NCBI GenBank assembly: GCA_903831255.1
Contig: CAIKWZ010000055.1
Location: 1-55,911 of the forward strand
From: an uncultured Alphaproteobacteria bacterium
Lineage (GTDB): Bacteria > Pseudomonadota > Alphaproteobacteria > Caulobacterales > Hyphomonadaceae
Direction: 5' to 3'
DNA: 55,911 nucleotides
Shown here: one piece after another, positions 2,624 to 28,411 of the stretch
Layout of the letters: the number at the start of each line of letters is the position of its first letter
Numbering within the stretch: position 1 is the stretch's first letter
Notes under the pieces: model-generated
What the model saw: only the letters and a program-made list of their open reading frames with translations
Told to the model about the DNA's origin: nothing
The model's database searches: none
Translations under genes and position numbers: made by a program

Positions 2624-3703
2624 ATGACGATGCGCCGACTGTTCAGAGGTCTTCTTCTGGCGCCGCTCGTGTGTCTCGCCGCCGCACATGCGCAGGCGCC
2701 ATCCGGCGATCTTCGCTCAGCGCAAACCGAACGCATCGAGGCGGCAGCCCGGACCTTCATGAAGGACACCGGCATCGCGAACATGTCCTTCCTGCTGATG
2801 CGCGGAGAGACAGTCCTCATGAGACGCGATTACGGCGCCTATGATGAGACGACCGTTCTCCCTCTGGCCTCGGCGACGAAGTGGGTCACCGGCGCCATGA
2901 TCATGCGCAGCGTCGATCGCGGCGAACTCAGTCTCGACGCCAGCATCGGAGCCTACGTGTCCGGACTTCCCGGCACGCATGCAGGTCTCAGGGTAAGAGA
3001 GCTCCTCTCCTACACCGCCGGCCTCCCCTCACTGGCGGATGGAGGCGGAGACATTGCGCAGAACAAGCGCATGGCGATGGATGAAGCAGCCCGCGCGCTG
3101 GCGGTCCGCCCTCCGACGACCCCGCCTTCGACAGATTTCGCCTATGGCGGCCCCGACTTCCAGTTCCTGGGGGCGGCTCTTGAAGCGAAGACCGGCTCGA
3201 AATGGGCCTCCGTGTTTGACGAAGCCTTCGCCCGTCCCATGGGGCTGTCGCCCTTTTACTGGAGCAACCCAAAGGGACCCAATCCGCCGAACACGGTCGC
3301 CAACCCCCTTCTGCAGGCAGGCGCCGCAACGACGCTGACCGCTTATGGCCGCTTCCTGACCATGATCGCAGGAAAGGGCGTGTTCGAGGGACGGCGCTAT
3401 CTCAGCGAAGCTGCCATCCGCCGCATGGAGGAGAGCGCGACCGACGGCCTGACCCTGCGCTATGTGCCCGACGGCGCGCCGGACGGGGCGGCCTACAATC
3501 TCGCTCACTGGTGCGAGCGCCCCGCCCCGTCGGGATGCCTCATGCTGTCGAGTCCGGGCGCCTTCGGCGTCTATCCCTGGATCGATCGGCCAAACGGCCT
3601 TCACGGCGTCATCTTTGTGGAGGACCGCCTGGCGCGTATCGCTGGTGAAGCCAGAGCCTTTCGGGACGAGATGATCGCCTCCGCCCGTTCGGGCGCACAG
3701 TGA
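2624..3703 (+). CDS. Beta-lactamase-family serine hydrolase (class C / esterase EstB type)
   Basis: A 359-residue exported protein with a Sec signal peptide ending near AHA (residues 20-23). The serine nucleophile motif SATK is at residues 83-86 (S-x-x-K), followed by the family's conserved LLSYTAGLPS, and a Tyr in FAYGGPDF (about residue 174) is the likely second catalytic element. The length and motif order fit the beta-lactamase/transpeptidase-like fold that includes penicillin-binding esterases and D-aminopeptidases; most members are not resistance enzymes. GAGAGG lies about ten bases before ATG 2624. The real substrate cannot be read from sequence. Confidence 0.85.
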   Translation: MTMRRLFRGLLLAPLVCLAAAHAQAPSGDLRSAQTERIEAAARTFMKDTGIANMSFLLMRGETVLMRRDYGAYDETTVLPLASATKWVTGAMIMRSVDRGELSLDASIGAYVSGLPGTHAGLRVRELLSYTAGLPSLADGGGDIAQNKRMAMDEAARALAVRPPTTPPSTDFAYGGPDFQFLGAALEAKTGSKWASVFDEAFARPMGLSPFYWSNPKGPNPPNTVANPLLQAGAATTLTAYGRFLTMIAGKGVFEGRRYLSEAAIRRMEESATDGLTLRYVPDGAPDGAAYNLAHWCERPAPSGCLMLSSPGAFGVYPWIDRPNGLHGVIFVEDRLARIAGEARAFRDEMIASARSGAQ

Positions 3704-3907
3704 CGGACGAATTCTTCGGCAAGGCGTCGATCAGTCGACGAACGGACGATTGGCGACCTCTGCGTGCTCACGATCAGCGGACGCTCACCATGCATGAGCG
3801 ACGGCGGGGTCGGGCGCTGACCGACCGGTTCGAGACGGCGCCCTGAGACAGGCTCAGAACGCGCGCTTCATGTCGAAGGCGATGGAAACGAGGACGCCCG
3901 CCCGAGA
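3704..3907. other. Intergenic spacer with a possible barrel-protein remnant
   Basis: This 200-base gap separates two convergent genes. No intact gene, strong hairpin with a T-run or promoter was seen. On the minus strand, immediately after the aldolase stop, bases 3907-3854 read as a short tail (GVLVSIAFDMKRAF then stop) that alternates hydrophobic residues and ends in Phe, like the C-terminus of an outer-membrane beta-barrel. It has no start and could be a chance reading. Confidence 0.3.
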
Positions 3908-4693
3908 TCAGGCGTCGTAGCCGGGAAGCTCCCGATCAAGCTTGCGCAGGCATCCCGGCCAGGCGAGCTGTCCGGCGCCGCCGAACCCGCGGGCCATCTG
4001 GCCGCGGACCGTCTCGATCGCCGCATCCGGAGCGAGGCGCGCCTTGTCGCGGCCGCCGGACAGGGCGAGGACCTGCATCCGGCAGGCGCGCTCCAGATAG
4101 AAAATGCCCATCCAGCACTCCGCCGCCGTCTCCCCGACCGCCAGCGTGCCATGGTTCCAGAGGAGCATCAGCTTCTTCGATCCGAGGTCGGCGACCAGAC
4201 GCTCACGTTCGTCGAGGTCCAGGGCGATGCCCTCATAGTCATGATAGCTCAGATGCGGGAGGGCGATCAGCGCATGCTGGCTGAGCGGCAGCAGCCCCTC
4301 GTTCTGAGCCGAGACCGCCACACCCTGGTCCGTGTGGAGATGGAGCACGAACTTCGCATCCTCCCGGGCCGAGTGGATCGCCGAGTGAATGGTGAACCCC
4401 GCCGGGTTCACGAAGTAATCGGACGGCTCGACGATGTTCCCCTCGAGGTCGATCTTCACCAGCGACGAGGCGGTGATCTCCCCGAAGAACATGCCGTAGG
4501 GATTGATGAGGAAGTGATGCTCAGGTCCCGGCACCCGAGCGGAGATATGGGTGAAGATGGCGTCATCCCATCCATAGGCGGCCACAAGCCTGTAGAGAGC
4601 GGCCAGATCGACCCGGACCTTCCACTCTTCCGGGCTTACCCGCTCGCGAACCGAAGACCCTGTCGACGAGAATGCCTTAACGTCATCCGCCAT
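3908..4693 (-). CDS. Class II aldolase/adducin family protein
   Basis: A 261-residue protein of the class II aldolase/adducin N-terminal family, which uses a metal (usually Zn) bound by histidines to cleave or epimerise sugar phosphates. The metal-site histidines appear in HLHTDQG (residues 118 and 120) and in WNHGTL (about residue 181). The N-terminal part (YGWDDAIFTHISARVPG) is typical of the uncharacterised, non-sugar-specific branch of the family. ATG 4693 is preceded by GAGGGAG at good distance and is chosen over a TTG at 4708. It is divergent from nadK. The substrate is unknown. Confidence 0.85.
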   Translation of the reverse strand: MADDVKAFSSTGSSVRERVSPEEWKVRVDLAALYRLVAAYGWDDAIFTHISARVPGPEHHFLINPYGMFFGEITASSLVKIDLEGNIVEPSDYFVNPAGFTIHSAIHSAREDAKFVLHLHTDQGVAVSAQNEGLLPLSQHALIALPHLSYHDYEGIALDLDERERLVADLGSKKLMLLWNHGTLAVGETAAECWMGIFYLERACRMQVLALSGGRDKARLAPDAAIETVRGQMARGFGGAGQLAWPGCLRKLDRELPGYDA

Positions 4694-4950: not shown

Positions 4951-5724
4951 ATGGCCGCCAGCGGACTGAAAATCTATTTCACGGCGTCGGAAAAGCCCGC
5001 CGCCCGCGCGGCGCTGACCGCCATGACGCGTCGCTACGGGCAAAGCCCCCCGGAGGACGCCGACGTGATCGTCGCCCTCGGCGGCGACGGATGGATGCTC
5101 GAAGTGCTGCGCGGACGACTGGCCGATCGCAGGCCGGTCTACGGGATGCATCGCGGCACGGTGGGCTTCCTGATGAACGAGTACGCCGAGGAGGACCTGC
5201 CCGCTCGCCTCGATGCGGCGGTTCGGGTGGTCATCCATCCGCTCGAGATGGAGGCGAGAGATAACGCCGGCCAGCGCCACACGCTTCTGGCTATCAACGA
5301 GGTGTCCCTGCTTCGTCAGACCTCGCAAACGGCGCGCCTTCGTATCTCAGTCGACGGCCGGGAGCGGCTGAGCGAACTCTCGGCCGACGGCGTAATCCTC
5401 GCCACGCCCGCCGGATCGACCGCCTATAACCTGTCCGCCCACGGCCCCATCCTGCCGCTCGGCGCCAATCTGCTCGCCCTGACCCCGATCTCACCCTTCC
5501 GACCCCGACGCTGGAGAGGCGCGCTTCTGCGCCATGACGCACACGTCAGGATCGAGGTTCTCGAATCCGATCGCCGGGTGGTGGCGGCGTCTGCGGACAC
5601 CCAGGAGGTCCGTGACGTAGCGGAAGTGAACATCCGGGAAGACAGAAGTCGTCCCTTAACCATGCTTTTTGACGAAGGTCGGGCCCTGGATGAACGGATC
5701 CTTCAGGAACAGTTTTCATACTGA
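4951..5724 (+). CDS. nadK: NAD kinase
   Basis: A 257-residue cytoplasmic enzyme that phosphorylates NAD to NADP. The diagnostic GGDG phosphate-binding motif is at residues 44-47 ([10 protein letters not shown]), and the second motif, [15 protein letters not shown], is intact; both are characteristic of the PpnK family. The length matches the short alphaproteobacterial NAD kinases. ATG 4951 follows a TGGAG site; the longer frame from a TTG at 4930 is not supported. The gene stands between a divergent aldolase-like gene and an Hpt-domain gene on the same strand 66 bases downstream. Confidence 0.95.
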
Positions 5725-23459: not shown

Positions 23460-24428
23460 ATGGCCGTCTACACCGACATCGATGATGCAACCCTCGCTGA
23501 GGCCCTTGAGGCCTACGACCTTGGCCGGCCCGTGGCGTTCAAGGGTATCGCCGAGGGCGTCGAAAACTCCAACTTCATGCTCGAGACCGAAACGGGCCGT
23601 TTCATTCTCACCCTCTTCGAGAAGCGTGTCCGTCGGGAGGACCTTCCCTTCTTCATGGGGATGATGGGCCATCTTGCGCACAAGGGATTTCCCGCGCCGC
23701 GACCCGTCGCGGCGCGTGACGGCGAGGTCATCCGAACCATCGCAGGCCGGCCGGCGGTTATCTGCACCTTTCTGAACGGCATGAGCCCCAGAAGGCCTGA
23801 CGTCGCCCAGTGCCGCATTCTGGGCGCAGGTCTCGCGCGGTTTCACGCAGCCCTTTCGGATTTCGAGGGCGTGCGGACCAATAACCTCTCCCTGTCGGCC
23901 TGGCCGACCCTGTTCGCCGGCAGGTCCGGAGAGGCCGACCGCCTCTCCAAAGGTCTCGCCGATCATATCTCTTCCGATCTCAGGGCGCTGCAGGACGCAT
24001 GGCCGGCGGACCTTCCACGGGGGGCGATCCACGCCGACCTTTTCCCGGACAACGCCTTCTTTCTCGGCGGCGAACTTTCGGGGGTCATAGACTTCTATTT
24101 CGCCTGCACGGACTTCCTCGCCTACGACATCGCCGTCTGCCTGAACGCCTGGGCCTTCGAACCCCGGGGGGAGTACAACATCACCCGCGGACGCGCCCTT
24201 CTGGCCGGCTATGAAAGTCTTCGTCCGCTCACCCCCGCCGAACGGATCGCTCTGCCCGTGCTCGCCAGGGGCGCAGCCCTTCGATTCTTTCTGACCCGCC
24301 TTGTCGACTGGGCCGAGACGCCCGCTGACGCATTGGTCAGGCCGCACAACCCGATGGACTACGCGGAACGGCTCGGCTTTCATCGCCAGGCCGAAGGTCC
24401 CGCAGATTATGGTCTCAACATCTCCTGA
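23460..24428 (+). CDS. thrB: Homoserine kinase (APH-fold, ThrB type II)
   Basis: A 322-residue kinase that phosphorylates homoserine for threonine synthesis. It belongs to the aminoglycoside-phosphotransferase fold used for ThrB in alphaproteobacteria: VENSNFMLET and ILTLFEKR (ATP site), the catalytic loop HADLFPDNAFF at about residue 195 and the metal-binding VIDFYFA shortly after. The C-terminus FLTRLVDWAETP and the tail GADYGLNIS-like end also fit. Downstream, in many relatives, rnhA follows directly; here about 3.5 kb of accessory DNA intervenes. Confidence 0.93.
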   Translation: MAVYTDIDDATLAEALEAYDLGRPVAFKGIAEGVENSNFMLETETGRFILTLFEKRVRREDLPFFMGMMGHLAHKGFPAPRPVAARDGEVIRTIAGRPAVICTFLNGMSPRRPDVAQCRILGAGLARFHAALSDFEGVRTNNLSLSAWPTLFAGRSGEADRLSKGLADHISSDLRALQDAWPADLPRGAIHADLFPDNAFFLGGELSGVIDFYFACTDFLAYDIAVCLNAWAFEPRGEYNITRGRALLAGYESLRPLTPAERIALPVLARGAALRFFLTRLVDWAETPADALVRPHNPMDYAERLGFHRQAEGPADYGLNIS

Positions 24429-24435
24429 CCGCCTG

Positions 24436-24464
24436 TCCTCTTCTTGAATTCCCCAAAAAGGCGC
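24436..24464 (+). repeat. Left-end repeat, copy 1
   Basis: Twenty-nine bases that match 26282-26310 at 24 of 29 positions by hand alignment (TCCTCTTCTkGAAyTCCCC core). It begins seven bases after the thrB stop. Confidence 0.6.
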
Positions 24465-24552
24465 ATCGCTGATTTTGCAGCGTTTTTGCGTCAGGAAACT
24501 CGCACCTTCTGTACCAGAAATGGCAGGCCGCTTCTGTACTCAGCAGGGCTGC
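24465..24552. other. Spacer at the left of unit 1
   Basis: Sequence of lower GC with two CTTCTGTAC words (24507-24515 and 24531-24539), a word also found inverted in the 138-bp repeat. No gene is supported. It lies between the end repeat and the frame-broken small ORF. Confidence 0.3.
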
Positions 24553-24823
24553 TCAGCTCGGGCGCTTTCGCTTCGATTTGCGCGGCAACGGATCATACCA
24601 ATCCTCGCGGTTCATGTCCCAAATCGCCCAGTCCCAGCCGGTATCGAAGTTCGATCGATTGACGCCGAGATTTTCCTTCGCCCACGCGAAGAGCTCAACC
24701 TTCGTTGCGGGGCTTGGGCGCGCCAGAAAGCATCAGCGTCTTCAGCCAATCCCTGCACCGCGCCGCACGCTCCACCGCAGCGGCCGCGGAGACTTTTCGC
24801 ATATCCTCTTCGTCAGCCCTCAT
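24553..24823 (-). pseudogene. Small ORF coupled to the first ATPase, broken by a frameshift
   Basis: An ATG at 24823 overlaps the stop of the first ATPase as ATGA. The frame reads MRADEEDMRKVSAAAAVERA, then CRDWLKTLMLSGAPKPRNEG and stops at 24695. A shift of one base near GAAGGTT restores a coherent second half, VELFAWAKENLGVNRSNFDT then GWDWAIWDMNREDWYDPLP, ending in a basic tail KRKRPS at 24553. That second half looks like a real, well-formed protein end (Trp-rich GWDWAI..DWYDP), so either the gene is broken by one extra G or the sequence has an error. The joined product would have about 89 residues. The family is not recognised. Confidence 0.5.
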
Positions 24824-26007
24824 CCACGCGCTCTCTCGGACAGAATTGTCGCGAGTTCTCGCAAACCTATCGCTTCAACGCCATTGCCCTTGGCGTATCG
24901 TTCGTGTCCGCCGTACACGATGTAGGCGCGCGATGGCTGCACGTCCTCCATCGCCGCGTGGAAACCCTTCTCGATCTTTGGCGCGCTTGATCGCTTGATT
25001 TCGATTGCCCAGCGCTCGCCGCCGGGCATGTCCAGTACGAGATCTAGTTCGGCGCCGGCGGACGTCCTGTAGAAGCTCGCATCCGTGCGCGGCGGCGCGA
25101 CGCTGATGAGCGTTTCGATCACATGTCCTTCCCAGCTTCCGCCAGCGACTGGGTGACCGAGGACGTCATCAAGAGTGTCGAGGCGCAGCAGCGAATGGAC
25201 CAAACCGCTATCGCGAACATAGGTCTTCGGCGACTTGGTGAGCCGCTTGCCTACGTTGGCGTGCAGCGGCTGCAACCGGCGCACCATCAGCAGGTCGACC
25301 ATAAGGTCGAGATACTTCGCGACTGTCTTGCCATCGACGGCAAGCGCGCGGGCGAGCTCCGCAGCGTTCAACAGGGCGCCCTGACGATGAGCGAGCATGG
25401 TCCAGAAGCGGCGCAGGGTCGTTGCTGGAATGCGCGGACCGAGTTGAGGAATGTCTCGCTCCAGATAGGTAGTGATGAAGGCTTCACGCCAACTGGCGCT
25501 CGCTTCGTCGGACTTGGCCAGGAAGCTGCGCGGAAAACCTCCACGCACCCAGAGCGTTTCAGCCTGAGCGGACGAGACTTCCGTTATGTCGACTGGCCCG
25601 AGCTCTAGATAGGCGATGCGTCCTGCGAGGCTTTCGCTGGACTGCTTCAGGAGTTCGATCGACGCCGAGCCCAACAGCAGGAATTGTCCCGTTTCCCGCC
25701 CGGCGCGAATGTTCTCGTCGATGATGCCCCTCAGCACCTGGAACAGCCCCGGCGCGCACTGCACCTCGTCGATTACGACAAGCCGATCGGCGCGCGCTCT
25801 CAAATAAGCGCCGGCGTCTTCAAGTTTCGCCTGATCGGCCGGATTTTCGAGATCAAGGTAGTCAGGCCGCCTCGTCCCGCCACTCACATCTCGGGCGATG
25901 GTTTGCGCCAGGGTGGACTTGCCCACTTGGCGCGGCCCAAGGAGCCCGACGGCCGGGAACTCGGCGAGGCGTTGTAGGATCAGCGGCGAAAGACGACGTG
26001 GAATCAT
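24820..26007 (-). CDS. AAA_14 / DUF4143 ATPase, first copy
   Basis: A 395-residue P-loop ATPase: Walker A GPRQVGKST at residues 24-32, Walker B LVVIDEVQ at about 76-83, then the GSASIELLK sensor region and the DUF4143 half with RRLQPLHANVGKRLTKSPKTYVRDSGL. The C-terminus carries GAELDLVLD followed by WAIEIKRS, the D...E-x-K spacing of a PD-(D/E)XK nuclease-like core. These proteins are widespread, patchily distributed and of unknown function. It differs clearly from the second copy at 26433-27653. It has lower GC than its surroundings and is on the opposite strand to thrB and rnhA. ATG 26007 sits just downstream of a dyad. Confidence 0.88.
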   Translation of the reverse strand: MIPRRLSPLILQRLAEFPAVGLLGPRQVGKSTLAQTIARDVSGGTRRPDYLDLENPADQAKLEDAGAYLRARADRLVVIDEVQCAPGLFQVLRGIIDENIRAGRETGQFLLLGSASIELLKQSSESLAGRIAYLELGPVDITEVSSAQAETLWVRGGFPRSFLAKSDEASASWREAFITTYLERDIPQLGPRIPATTLRRFWTMLAHRQGALLNAAELARALAVDGKTVAKYLDLMVDLLMVRRLQPLHANVGKRLTKSPKTYVRDSGLVHSLLRLDTLDDVLGHPVAGGSWEGHVIETLISVAPPRTDASFYRTSAGAELDLVLDMPGGERWAIEIKRSSAPKIEKGFHAAMEDVQPSRAYIVYGGHERYAKGNGVEAIGLRELATILSERARG

Positions 26008-26012
26008 CCATG

Positions 26013-26039
26013 CAATTATGGACTATTGATCCACGATTG
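26013..26039. promoter_or_regulatory. 27-base dyad at the start of the first ATPase
   Basis: Symmetric blocks CAAT (26013-26016), TGGA (26019-26022), TCCA (26030-26033) and ATTG (26036-26039) are centred on 26026, only six bases upstream of the minus-strand ATG. A repressor bound here would block the transcription start or leader, as in autoregulated genes. No similar site lies at the second ATPase. Confidence 0.45.
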
Positions 26040-26147
26040 CAAGGATGCCACGGCGCGAAATCAGCGTCCAAGCCGGAATGACACGGCGTCCATTTCGGCA
26101 TGACGCCAGCGATTGTTGTGCCCAAATTCACTTCGAGTCGCGTTTGG

Positions 26148-26285
26148 GACTCGAACTTTCCTGCACCTAAAATTTGATTAACTTTCGTTAATCTTGGTAC
26201 AGAAGTTGGGTACCGACACGACCCTTTTCCCGGCGCCCGTTTCCTTCAGTATCAAGCACTTAAAGGCGACCAATCCTGGTTTCCT
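26148..26285. repeat. 138-bp cassette-end repeat, copy A
   Basis: Matches 27778-27915 without gaps at 119 of 138 positions by hand count. Fully conserved blocks include GGGTACCGACACGACCC, ACTTAAAGGC and CCAATCCTGGTTTCCT. It contains the inverted repeat GATTAACTTTCGTTAATC (26176-26193). Its left edge, GACTCGAA (26148-26155), pairs with TTCGAGTC at 26132-26139. It lies about 140 bases upstream of the first ATPase. Confidence 0.85.
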
Positions 26286-26310
26286 CTTCTGGAACTCCCC
26301 AAGAACGTGC
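26282..26310 (+). repeat. Left-end repeat, copy 2
   Basis: Matches 24436-24464 at 24 of 29 bases and is continuous with the end of repeat copy A, so it marks the junction between the two units. Confidence 0.6.
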
Positions 26311-26432
26311 GCCGAAGTTGGCCGTACGCCAAGTGGCGGCCGAGACAACTATCCCAATGGGGCAATCCAGGCGCTCAACTTGTCCTGGATGGCCGAAACC
26401 TTCCCGATCGGTAAATCATGCCGCCTGGGGGG

Positions 26433-27653
26433 TCACGCCCACAATGATGCAATGGGGATCGCCCAGAGTCTGTCGGCGTACTGCAATCGATGTCTGCCAT
26501 CGTACAGAACCACCCCCAACGCAAACTTGTCCCTGAGAGCGCTGGAGAGTTTGCGCATAGGAGCAAAGGCTTCCGGCCTCACCGTTGAGCCGGACTTCAC
26601 CTCAATGGCGACAACCTTGCGACCCCAGTTCTCAAGAATGAAATCGATCTCTGCACCGTCATGGTCACGATAGTGGTGAATGCTGATCCTCTCGCCACTC
26701 CAGGTCGCCTGTTTCGACAGTTCGGAAAAAACGAATGTCTCGACAATTGGCCCAAGACTCACACGATCGGGACCAAGAGCCTCAGGATTGAGCTTCCGCA
26801 TCGCAGCAGCGAGACCGGCGTCAAAGAAGTGTAGCTTGGGCGCCCTGACGAGCCGCTTCAGTTCATTGCGAAACCAAGGGCGGACTCGGCGCACTAGAAA
26901 CATCTGTTCCAAAACGCCAACATGCCGGTCGACGGTCTTTCGGTCCATGCCGAGTTGCGCGCCAAGCTGCGTAAGGTTGACCATCTCGCTGCAATGCTGT
27001 GCGAGGAGCTCCACAAGCCGAGGCATGTCGCGCCGTCGGTCCAGGTTGGCGATGTCGGCGACGTCCTGCTCGATAAGCGCGGCCGCGTAGGCCTCGAACC
27101 AATCTAGGCGGCGCCCTCGACTGGTTCTCGCAACGGCCTCTGGAAACCCTCCCATCGCCACTATTCGCTGCAACTCGGTAGGTTCGAGTGCGCCGCCCTC
27201 CGGCGCCCTTCCCTCGAACACATCGGCGATGAAGCTCGATCGCCGGCCGCTGATTTCGTCGCGCGACAGCGGAAGCAACTCAAAAACCTGGATCCGTCCC
27301 GCCAGTGAGTCCTGGATCGTGGGAAGCGTACGGATATCGGCGGAGCCCGTAATGAGAAACCGACCGGGCGTCGGGTCCTCGTCCACTGCCAGCTTTATCG
27401 CCAGCATCAATTCCGGAACGCGCTGAATCTCGTCGATCACAGTCAATCCGCGCGTGCGCCTTACAAATCCTGTCGGATCGTCCGCGGCGGCCTTGAGGTT
27501 CACGGCTTCGTCGAGGCTGAGATAGGTCGCGGACTTCCCGGCGATCGACCGCGCCAAGGTCGACTTGCCGGACTGACGAGGTCCCGCGATCGCGACCACC
27601 CTTGTGTCCCTCAGGGCGTCTCGAATGGAGGCTTCGATAAATCTTGGAAACAT
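26433..27653 (-). CDS. AAA_14 / DUF4143 ATPase, second copy
   Basis: A 406-residue P-loop ATPase with Walker A GPRQSGKST (residues 24-32), Walker B LTVIDEIQ and a sensor GSADIRTLP, followed by a DUF4143 half with LFLVRRVRPWFRNELKRLVRAPKLHFFDAGL-type sequence broken into LVRRVRPW and KLHFFDAGL segments. The C-terminal GAEIDFI then AIEVKSG is the same nuclease-like core as in copy one. The two proteins align only over motifs, so they belong to different branches of the family. ATG 27653 is chosen since the frame to 27830 would translate the 138-bp repeat. Three 22-bp iterons lie immediately upstream. Confidence 0.88.
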   Translation of the reverse strand: MFPRFIEASIRDALRDTRVVAIAGPRQSGKSTLARSIAGKSATYLSLDEAVNLKAAADDPTGFVRRTRGLTVIDEIQRVPELMLAIKLAVDEDPTPGRFLITGSADIRTLPTIQDSLAGRIQVFELLPLSRDEISGRRSSFIADVFEGRAPEGGALEPTELQRIVAMGGFPEAVARTSRGRRLDWFEAYAAALIEQDVADIANLDRRRDMPRLVELLAQHCSEMVNLTQLGAQLGMDRKTVDRHVGVLEQMFLVRRVRPWFRNELKRLVRAPKLHFFDAGLAAAMRKLNPEALGPDRVSLGPIVETFVFSELSKQATWSGERISIHHYRDHDGAEIDFILENWGRKVVAIEVKSGSTVRPEAFAPMRKLSSALRDKFALGVVLYDGRHRLQYADRLWAIPIASLWA

Positions 27654-27662
27654 GGCAGGTCC

Positions 27663-27728
27663 GAAAAACGCGCGCGATACGCCTGAAAAACGGGCGTACG
27701 ATTGACGAAAAACGAGCGCGAAGCAAGG
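27663..27728. repeat. Three 22-bp iterons upstream of the second ATPase
   Basis: GAAAAACGNGCG begins at 27663, 27685 and 27707, an exact 22-base period (about two helical turns). The first copy is ten bases from the minus-strand ATG at 27653. Within it, TACGCC (27678-27683) and GGCGTA (27693-27698) also form a hairpin. The regular face-of-helix spacing suggests a protein operator array, probably for autoregulation. Confidence 0.7.
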
Positions 27729-27777
27729 GCCGCAAGGTGCGCCACTGACGACAAGTCCAGTTTGGGTCCGCCTTTCG

Positions 27778-27915
27778 GACTCGAACGTTCCTGAACGCAA
27801 AATATGATTAACTTCTGTTAATATCGGCACAGAAGCTGGGTACCGACACGACCCTTTTCCTGGCGCCTGTTTCGTGCAATCTCAAACACTTAAAGGCGGC
27901 CAATCCTGGTTTCCT
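27778..27915. repeat. 138-bp cassette-end repeat, copy B
   Basis: Counterpart of 26148-26285. It keeps the inner inverted repeat as ATTAAC-TTCT-GTTAAT (27807-27822), and its left edge pairs GTCCG (27766-27770) with CGGAC (27776-27780), a different sequence but similar structure to copy A. It ends 55 bases before the rnhA start, and the right-hand continuation differs from copy A after TTTCCT. Confidence 0.85.
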
Positions 27916-27970
27916 TCCCCTGCGCCATCGCCCCCTAGGTCGTTGAATTCATCGAAAGGCGTTGAGCAAC

Positions 27971-28411
27971 ATGATTGAGATCTGGACGGACGGCGCCTGC
28001 TCAGGGAACCCCGGACCCGGAGGATGGGGCGTACTGATCCGCGAAGGCGCGACAAGCCGTGAACTTCATGGCGGAGAGGCGGCGACCACCAACAACCGGA
28101 TGGAGCTGACGGCCGCCATATCGGCGCTTGAAAGCCTTCCCGAAGGCGCCAGCTGCATCCTCCACACCGACAGCCAGTACGTGAAGGACGGCCTCACCAA
28201 ATGGATCCGCGGCTGGAAGAAGAACGGCTGGAAGACAGCCGATCGCAAGCCGGTCAAGAACCAGGACCTCTGGGTTCGCCTCGACGCCGCCGCCCACGCC
28301 CGCCGCGTCGACTGGCGATGGGTGCGCGGACACAATGGGGACGAAGGCAATGAACGCGCCGACGCCCTCGCCCGTCTCGGATGCGAAACCATCGGCCGCG
28401 GACGATCCTGA
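27971..28411 (+). CDS. rnhA: Ribonuclease HI
   Basis: A 146-residue enzyme that degrades the RNA strand of RNA-DNA hybrids during replication and repair. The four catalytic acidic residues are visible: Asp 7 in [16 protein letters not shown], Glu 45 in NNRMELTA, Asp 67 in HTDSQYV and Asp 131 in NERADALA. The basic handle ([20 protein letters not shown]) is present, as in E. coli RnhA. ATG 27971 is preferred to TTG 27962, because the AAAGG site is too close to the latter. Its gene is normally next to thrB; here it has been separated by the insert. Confidence 0.95.

Follow-up and report, generated by a model that had tools for sequence, protein, structure and literature searches.

Analysis of a 55,911-nucleotide stretch of DNA (the window) revealed, between two housekeeping genes, a stack of two ATPase-nuclease genes that are only distantly related and lie between end sequences common to both (Table 1). 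With a probability of about two in three, this arrangement arose from an older mobile block carrying ATPase 1, located between thrB and rnhA, and from a second unit carrying ATPase 2 (unit 2), which was later inserted at the R/F end of the block with doubling of the repeat R. The older block placed there would have consisted of ATPase 1 and its palindrome, R1 and flank F; the second single-gene module would have brought ATPase 2, together with the 22-bp iterons and the left end belonging to it, into the R/F end, and its insertion would leave R in two copies around unit 2. Movement would most likely have been driven by a tRNA-type integrase supplied in trans, or by RecA-mediated recombination of a circular form at R. 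We infer this order of events at thrB-rnhA, and unit 2 is probably a self-regulated single-gene module.

Table 1. Features of the region between and including thrB and rnhA in the window
Feature	Position	Strand	Remarks
thrB-like homoserine kinase	23460..24428	+	Left neighbour; ORF; named in the preliminary description
Left end L, unit 1	24436..24464		24/29 to 26282-26310
ATPase 1, AAA_14-DUF4143, 395 aa, palindrome clade	24820..26007	-	Pfam, PADLOC, tree
Imperfect palindrome CCTTGCA...TGCATGG, predicted operator	26008..26044	-	Directly before ATG of ATPase 1; coordinates counted on sequence
Two 22-bp iteron-like repeats, GGACG kind	26065..26104	-	Coordinates counted on sequence
Hairpin TTCGAGTC-N8-GACTCGAA, tRNA T-loop-like	26132..26155		Inner edge of R1; sequence and fold
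Repeat R1	26139..26285		126/147 to R2
Left end L' of unit 2	26282..26310		Abuts R1
ATPase 2, AAA_14-DUF4143, 406 aa, ATG at 27653, iteron clade	26433..27653	-	Pfam, PADLOC, tree
Three iterons CGCNCGTTTTTC, period 22	27663..27718	-	5' of ATPase 2; coordinates counted on sequence
Hairpin matching that of R1	27760..27786		Inner edge of R2; fold
Repeat R2	27769..27915		126/147 to R1
Flank F	27916..27966		Directly adjoins R in G245; assigned to the older mobile block
rnhA	27971..28411	+	Right neighbour; ORF

The thrB-like gene had a match in all 15 genomes of the genus, and an rnhA homologue was found near thrB in seven of the 15 thrB loci examined, at a spacing of 60 bp in one and about 670-1120 bp in six. 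R1 and R2 align without gaps at 86% identity, and a 138-bp repeat pair reported in a preliminary description of this DNA proved to be the same 147-bp repeat, cut slightly shorter. R is AT-rich, the G + C content of the two copies being 47.6 and 49.0% versus 64.4%. The 24 matches between the left ends, also described there, were reproduced, and the next best place for the 29-mer on either strand of the 55.9-kb window matches at 18 bases. The three TCCT at 24436, 26282 and 27912 could be read directly in the sequence; that at 26282 is both the end of R1 and the start of L', four of the 24 matching bases being common with R. No terminal inverted repeats were seen, the unit ends holding no inverted repeat pair. 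As described earlier, inspection by eye of the listed thrB-rnhA ORFs showed no recombinase, nor an integron integrase or transposase; the Pfam search of this stretch covered the two ATPases only.

Both proteins scored over the Pfam cut-off for the AAA_14 and DUF4143 domains and matched the PADLOC model PDC-S01 (9.3e-86 for ATPase 1, 4.9e-157 for ATPase 2), a class (AAA_14-DUF4143) that we take to be COG1373. BLASTP aligned them at 28% identity over most of their length, somewhat more than the alignment at motifs alone given in the preliminary description; its shared ends do enclose two very different cargos. In the tree the two fall in separate clades, that of ATPase 1 on a branch of 1.17 with support 99/99. 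The nearest kin of ATPase 1 in the tree is 70% identical and from the same family, and that of ATPase 2 is 80% identical and from a genome of another family (G245); a broken relative of ATPase 1 in G245, 81-88% identical in pieces, was left out of the tree. Residues E320, D322, E336 and K338 of the C-terminal domain, presumably the PD-(D/E)XK motif residues, are invariant in nine proteins, and the PD-(D/E)XK strand order is followed in residues 291-395 of a weak predicted model (mean pLDDT 60; that part mostly 61-89). Sequence search of the PDB gave general P-loop matches only, and the best 50 PDB matches of a structure search (DnaA, Orc, IstB, Card1 and other ATPases and nucleases) had TM values of at most 0.27 by query length and are leads only. 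On sequence grounds both genes are PDC-S01, encoding AAA+ ATPases that end in a predicted PD-(D/E)XK nuclease, for which phage defence is a candidate role. The passages of PMC12988326 on PDC-S01 rank it fourth by frequency among the defences of prokaryotes, describe an ATPase fused to a PD-(D/E)XK member and state that validation is pending for most such defence candidates; in these passages the account contains neither start-codon operators nor single-gene mobile modules with defined ends.

In G245, F, R and ATPase 1 are contiguous without unit 2: R is joined directly to F, the sequence preceding rnhA in the window, and the block matches the window at 76.6% DNA identity over 1431 bp and 76.7% over 146 bp. 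G245 has an empty site for unit 2. The right limit of the older block lies at about 27966 and not at 27915. The preliminary description had expected an empty site restored at TCCT; the site of unit 2 is indeed empty in this other family, but the outer right boundary, placed at the TCCT at 27912, had to be given up, the sequence to about 27966 belonging to the older block. Two results from G245 count against our reading: L is absent next to its copy of ATPase 1 (best match 14/29), and its relative of ATPase 2 is flanked by neither R nor L (best L match 17/29). Over 90 columns, agreement is 80 for R1/R2, 73 for R1/G245 and 68 for R2/G245, with four-sequence patterns of 2:2:1, which is compatible both with duplication of R at insertion and with import of an old R. 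The G004 contig breaks off within ATPase 1, and the window's unit 2 and rnhA region have no match there. A search of the genus for an empty site of the G000:C15 copy yielded G000 and G004 only.

R was found in two copies in the window and in one in G245, adjoining the ATPase-1 relative, and a diverged 77-bp piece lies away from any ATPase in G004; the repeat is thus not confined to the window, which would have refuted the preliminary description, the G004 piece being the weaker instance. The complete L...R pair was seen in the window only, and L with unit 1 also in G004. A sample of 398 genomes of the order, with two candidates scored in each, yielded no third L...R unit, and neither did 105 genomes of the family. 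R was absent from the other 13 genomes of the genus, in which the best matches to F had E values of 0.006-0.6. A strict R core pattern matched one contig across 84,980 species and nothing in viral contigs, both weak negatives since the pattern missed G245; R1 had no match in plasmids and R2 none in phages, which counts against our reading. On the strict-pattern, plasmid and phage searches, R was rejected as a widespread repeat.

Other identities for R were also considered. A 19-base match in G102 was inspected and set aside as chance, and 27-bp matches in G418 and G259 comprise the hairpin alone, a palindrome of the same kind as that at the edge of R1. About 0.4 kb from the G418 match is an ORF with what reads as the start of an integrase. 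R was rejected as a tRNA: the window has no tRNA, and the T-loop-like decamer in R has no T-stem by eye. The decamer may well occur by chance (0.57 expected in 80.9 kb), and no T-loop-type motif was present in 18.4 kb of flanks from 16 plasmid or viral loci, a further point against our reading. A known RNA or attC-like element seems unlikely, Rfam giving no match up to E 1 and attC core motifs being judged by eye only.

Relatives of these genes carry signs of mobility. In Agrobacterium plasmids, a sharp-ended single-ATPase module of about 1.5 kb, in which no recombinase is annotated, was found in several contexts, its copies being 96.5-99.1% identical; at least one gene of the AAA_14-DUF4143 family moves as a single-gene unit. 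The element family suggested in the preliminary description gains from this module, but a wide family with the ends seen here was unsupported. Flanking direct repeats at E<=1e-5, a cut chosen after looking, were found for 6 of 44 ATPases, including window ATPase 2, versus 1 of 92 controls, the latter counted after dropping a control row that was a longer ORF of ATPase 2 itself; one locus tabulation gives each of the two window genes a row of its own despite the homology of R1 and R2. Other members lie between duplicated pieces that read as sdhB (157 bp), tRNA-Arg (88 bp) and a host gene end (215 bp), or adjoin tRNAs, tRNA fragments or ends reading as guaA, der or sdhB, as do small islands at tRNA genes and gene 3' ends; unlike such islands, the window site has no tRNA and no integrase was seen. 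One flanking repeat is at guaA with an integrase fragment.

At the start codon, AAA_14-DUF4143 genes often carry a repeat or palindrome of their own. Among 62 non-redundant members, direct repeats just before the start codon were found in 29, with lags of 22 (19 genes), 23 (nine) and 19 (one), and a palindrome in 18; either signal was present in 44, and the 18 with neither count against our reading. Direct repeats at p<=0.01 were found in 20 of 48 genes, versus 0/47 downstream, 0/45 far upstream and 1/60 other genes. The controls cover this 48-gene set, to which 14 plasmid genes were added later; almost none of the controls show direct repeats, and few show palindromes. Repeat thresholds were chosen after looking, inverted-repeat p-values come from 40-60 shuffles, and tree labels use looser cuts (p 0.03 direct, 0.05 inverted). 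The ATPase 2 iterons (lag 22) reach only p 0.02 for the gene alone, again a point against our reading, and a related motif lies 5' of relatives in G088, G075, G072 and G245 (L127). The ATPase 1 palindrome gave an inverted-repeat p of 0.024, the lowest possible with 40 shuffles, and fails the strict clade pattern. The 22-bp GGACG repeats 5' of ATPase 1 (lag 22, p 0.007) are of the kind typical of the other clade and may be a relic of an earlier ATPase; a similar pair is found at the same place in G245. The upstream sites are predicted to be bound by the ATPase itself and are probably autoregulatory operators.

Several other explanations of the window were weighed. The cassette of the preliminary description, a non-autonomous element bounded by L and R that a recombinase from elsewhere would excise and insert at TCCT, agrees with the same order of L and R in both units, with the joining of R to F in G245 exactly at the place of unit 2, and with the sharp-ended sister module of Agrobacterium plasmids. 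We nevertheless consider it unlikely, as the order and family samples yielded no third L...R unit (the strict-pattern, plasmid and phage searches being weaker negatives), the nearest relative of ATPase 2 is without either end, no terminal inverted repeats were seen and the outer right limit is not TCCT. That ATPase 2 inserted with a long target duplication, the 147-bp R being the target that was copied as in restriction-modification genes, is a possibility of some substance, if a doubtful one: R lies on both sides of ATPase 2 and occurs once in G245, the two window copies resemble each other more than they do the G245 copy, and the duplicated sdhB-like, tRNA-Arg and host-gene-end pieces around other members are of this pattern, but the L common to both units is left unexplained, the R copies are only 86% identical, and some of the other repeats resemble integrase attachment sites (the tRNA; guaA with the integrase fragment).

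A plain tandem duplication of one unit, after which the gene copies diverged, would account for two related genes in like order and orientation, but is hardly credible: the non-coding ends are 86% identical against 28% for the proteins, and each ATPase has closer relatives elsewhere. Simple divergence of this kind is refuted by the protein identity and the separate clades, so that the close paralogy against which the preliminary description had cautioned does not apply. It is also most improbable that R serves the two genes only as a promoter or regulatory leader that was copied to regulate both and has no part in mobility; R is upstream of both genes, AT-rich and holds conserved hairpins, but a repeat or palindrome by the ATG is already present for each gene, with unrelated DNA between that and R, and R, F and ATPase 1 form one block in G245.

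Nobusato et al. reportedly described in 2000 the insertion of restriction-modification genes with long target duplication. Such insertion is also described in PMC3031569 and PMC4978471, and the window is similar in having a defence-type gene between long direct repeats that are single where the gene is absent, and differs in the 14% divergence of the R copies and in the second end L shared by the units. The flanking repeats (R1/R2) and the single copy at the uninterrupted site (G245) are both present, and the present identity of 126/147 stands beside an expectation of near-identical copies at insertion. Integron gene cassettes are tandem single-gene units with a shared flanking element, as are the window units; unlike with them, no integrase was seen by eye among the thrB-rnhA ORFs and no attC match was found (Rfam up to E 1), and the shared element is upstream of the gene. 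Features of a classical DDE transposon were not found, there being no transposase among the ORFs by eye and no terminal inverted repeats.

With the empty site in G245, what was a curious double repeat becomes a placed insertion. The operator-like site, whose two kinds follow the protein tree, provides a DNA ligand and a reporter assay for each clade, and the sharp-ended single-gene module offers a mobility assay. A more speculative and, in our view, improbable extension is that AAA_14-DUF4143 genes are self-contained selfish modules, in which the protein would assemble on the 22-bp iterons or the palindrome of its own gene, just as replication initiators and transposition ATPases assemble on their sites, the nuclease would open the DNA, and the module would be copied into new sites. 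If this were true, one of the commonest untested 'defence' genes would be a recombinase-free mobile element, and the window would hold two of them, stacked.

The stretch between thrB and rnhA holds two AAA_14-DUF4143 genes in tandem, both encoded on the minus strand. The plus-strand order after thrB is left end L, ATPase 1, repeat R1, left end L′, ATPase 2, repeat R2 and flank F, the 51 bp preceding rnhA. R1 and R2 are identical at 126 of 147 positions, and 24 of the 29 bases of L recur in L′. The two ATPases share 28% identity. The R copies are AT-rich (G + C 47.6 and 49.0% versus 64.4% for the window), and a scan of both strands of the window found no third L-like place above 18/29. A short ORF overlapping the ATPase 1 stop ends after 42 codons; a protein-like stretch goes on in another frame, and by eye the sequence of the nearest relative, G004, looks the same.

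Features of the thrB-rnhA site and of related loci (window positions unless a locus or contig is named)
Feature	Position	Strand	Remark
L	24436-24464		left end of unit 1
Short ORF	24695-24823	minus
ATPase 1	24820-26007	minus	unit 1
GGACG-type iterons	26065-26104		two, 22 bp each
R1	26139-26285		unit 1
L′	26282-26310		left end of unit 2
ATPase 2	26433-27653	minus	unit 2
R2	27769-27915		unit 2
F	27916-27966
G245 alignment 1	24866-26287		76.6% over 1431 bp
G245 alignment 2	27825-27967		76.7% over 146 bp
ATPase 2 relative and adjoining ORF	L134 (G245:C104) 2327-2980 and 3306-4523
215-bp repeats	L076 (G000:C15) 3321-3535 and 5280-5494		89%
Palindrome	L183 (G418:C100) near 3569
Broken DUF4143 gene	G000:C43:197855-198097 and G004:C26:22440-22679

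The preliminary description took the shared ends to define a family of non-autonomous elements; this is supported in part, though not as a widespread family having these same ends. R occurs twice in its own genome. G004 has a 77-bp piece of it (78%) with no ATPase nearby, within about 250 bp absent from G000 at the corresponding place. In a sample of 398 genomes from the order, a genome of another family, G245, carries R (82% over 92 bp) beside an ATPase 1 relative. No further copy was found in 105 genomes of the family, the sole other match being 19 bases in one genome; three more genomes of the order sample matched over 21-27 bases only, two of them merely at the hairpin of the R inner edge. 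A palindrome like that of this hairpin, GTTCGAGTCC-N-GGACTCGAAC, occurs in locus L183, about 0.4 kb from an ORF reading like an integrase start.

In G245, R adjoins an ATPase 1 relative broken into three pieces in different frames (81-88% identical). From the two alignments in the table, R therefore continues straight into F there, without L′ and without ATPase 2. This is an empty site for unit 2; neither thrB nor rnhA was found within the 5.5 kb examined around this block. Across seven loci of the genus that have thrB and rnhA, F found no match better than 21 bases (E 0.006). Since R is joined to F in G245 and these loci hold no good match, F was taken as a piece of an older mobile block, and the right border that the preliminary description placed at 27915 as one that limits R only.

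We propose that the older block F-R-ATPase 1 would have come into the thrB-rnhA spacer, and that a second module with ATPase 2 would later have inserted at the R/F end, R now being double. An integrase acting in trans may have moved unit 2, RecA may have recombined a circle through R, or R may have been copied at insertion as a target duplication, and all three fit; insertion with long target duplication is described in PMC3031569 and PMC4978471. Over 90 compared R columns, R1 agrees with G245 against R2 in 7, R2 with G245 against R1 in 2, and R1 with R2 against G245 in 14; with the G004 piece as a fourth sequence the column patterns are 2:2:1. These patterns do not decide whether unit 2 arrived together with an R of its own or R was doubled when the unit went in. 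The nearest ATPase 2 relative is also in G245, on a different contig from the R/ATPase 1 block; its likeness to unit 2 is confined to the gene plus about 13 bp upstream, and neither R nor L lies beside it. It adjoins an ORF that by eye reads like a tyrosine recombinase.

Six of 44 ATPases, window ATPase 2 among them, have direct repeats on both sides within 500 bp (E<=1e-5), versus 1 of 92 controls. Agrobacterium plasmids carry a single ATPase within a module of about 1.5 kb, which is the sole sequence common to loci L171 and L174 (96.5%) and to L171 and L173 (98.8%); L171 and L172 have the left context in common and diverge at the module right end. Its left ends read GGTTC...GAGC and its constant right end (G/C)TTC(G/T)ATTC(C/T)CTTCA, and records without the module have related sequence at the site. 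A 1242-bp gene unit, beginning at the palindrome, has a 94% identical counterpart in another genus. Other ATPases adjoin duplicated ends reading as sdhB, tRNA-Arg, der, guaA or another gene (sdhB, der and guaA are names we presume from our own sequence reading; tRNA and integrase are tool results). The der-like ends surround a nucleotidyltransferase neighbouring the ATPase, and the guaA-like end comes with an integrase fragment. Of 41 rows, 6 have a tRNA within 1 kb and 8 the T-loop decamer, whereas 178 kb of background sequence contained 2 tRNAs and a single decamer; no T-loop-type motif was found in the flanks of 16 plasmid or viral loci.

Single loci add further arrangements. Another ATPase of G000, and likewise of G004, lies between 215-bp direct repeats, the first formed by the 3′ end of the ORF before it; the single ATPase of L110 (G358:C33) is flanked by a 157-bp, 93% repeat reading as the sdhB 3′ end. 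L141 (G153:C74) has two ATPases and three 105-106-bp copies of one repeat (98-99% identical, one inverted), two of which closely flank the first ATPase.

Predicted operators were sought in the 90 bp ahead of each start codon, for 48 non-redundant genes with controls. Direct repeats (p<=0.01) were present in 20 of 48, versus 0/47 downstream regions, 0/45 far upstream and 1/60 upstream regions of other genes; the lag was 22 or 23 in 24 of the 27 genes with repeats at p<=0.05. Inverted repeats (p<=0.02) were present in 14 of 48, versus 3/60 other genes and 1/47 downstream. With 14 plasmid genes added (62 in total, controls covering the 48), 29 had direct repeats at p<=0.01 (lag 22 in 19, 23 in 9, 19 in 1) and 18 inverted repeats at p<=0.03, so that 44 had either signal, 3 both and 18 neither. 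Iterons were seen again in plasmids of Collinsella, Spartinivicinus, Skermanella, Neorhizobium and Agrobacterium; Moraxella and Runella passed the palindrome test, Thermus was borderline (p 0.049), and the Prosthecochloris, Simkania, Sphingobium and Sulfitobacter genes passed neither.

A tree built from 62 proteins places ATPase 1 within a 22-row clade (branch 1.17, support 99/99) and ATPase 2 outside it, the root being unsure. Operator kind, under looser labels, tracks this tree, with 14 changes versus 26.5 in shuffles and 0 of 200 shuffles as low. Under these labels the clade of ATPase 1 comprises 19 genes of the inverted kind, 2 with neither kind and a single direct one, which is the window gene; the strict palindrome CTTGYA-N20-28-TRCAAG occurs in 14/22 of the clade versus 0/40 others and is absent before window ATPase 1. 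Window ATPase 2, taken by itself, reaches p 0.02 for direct repeats, and window ATPase 1 passes both tests because an iteron-like pair stands upstream of its palindrome. This GGACG-type pair is of the other clade's kind, with a similar pair at the equivalent place in G245, and might be left over from a former ATPase that was exchanged at the operator.

Both proteins match PADLOC PDC-S01 (9.3e-86 for ATPase 1, 4.9e-157 for ATPase 2). The P-loop and E320, D322, E336 and K338, among others, are invariant in the nine proteins compared, and these four residues fit, in our reading, a candidate PD-(D/E)XK site; confidence in the structure model is low (mean pLDDT 60), its PDB matches serving as leads only. 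A further DUF4143 gene in G000 and G004, with only short open pieces, looks broken. In the open-access papers searched, DUF4143 occurs in one, for the Thermus gene TT_P0211 (motifs AAA 14 and DUF4143), to which a table of genes that differ in plasmid-carrying cells gives a value of 6.6-fold; mentions of PF13635, PF13173 or AAA_14 came up in 12 papers, mostly unrelated as judged by title, and PDC-S01 in 3. There was no match for 22-bp upstream repeats with such ATPases and no report of such operators among these papers, which include no bioRxiv preprints and little from subscription journals. We infer that the ATPase binds its own upstream iterons or palindrome and, in the boldest of the readings for unit movement, the ATPase-nuclease may mobilise itself.
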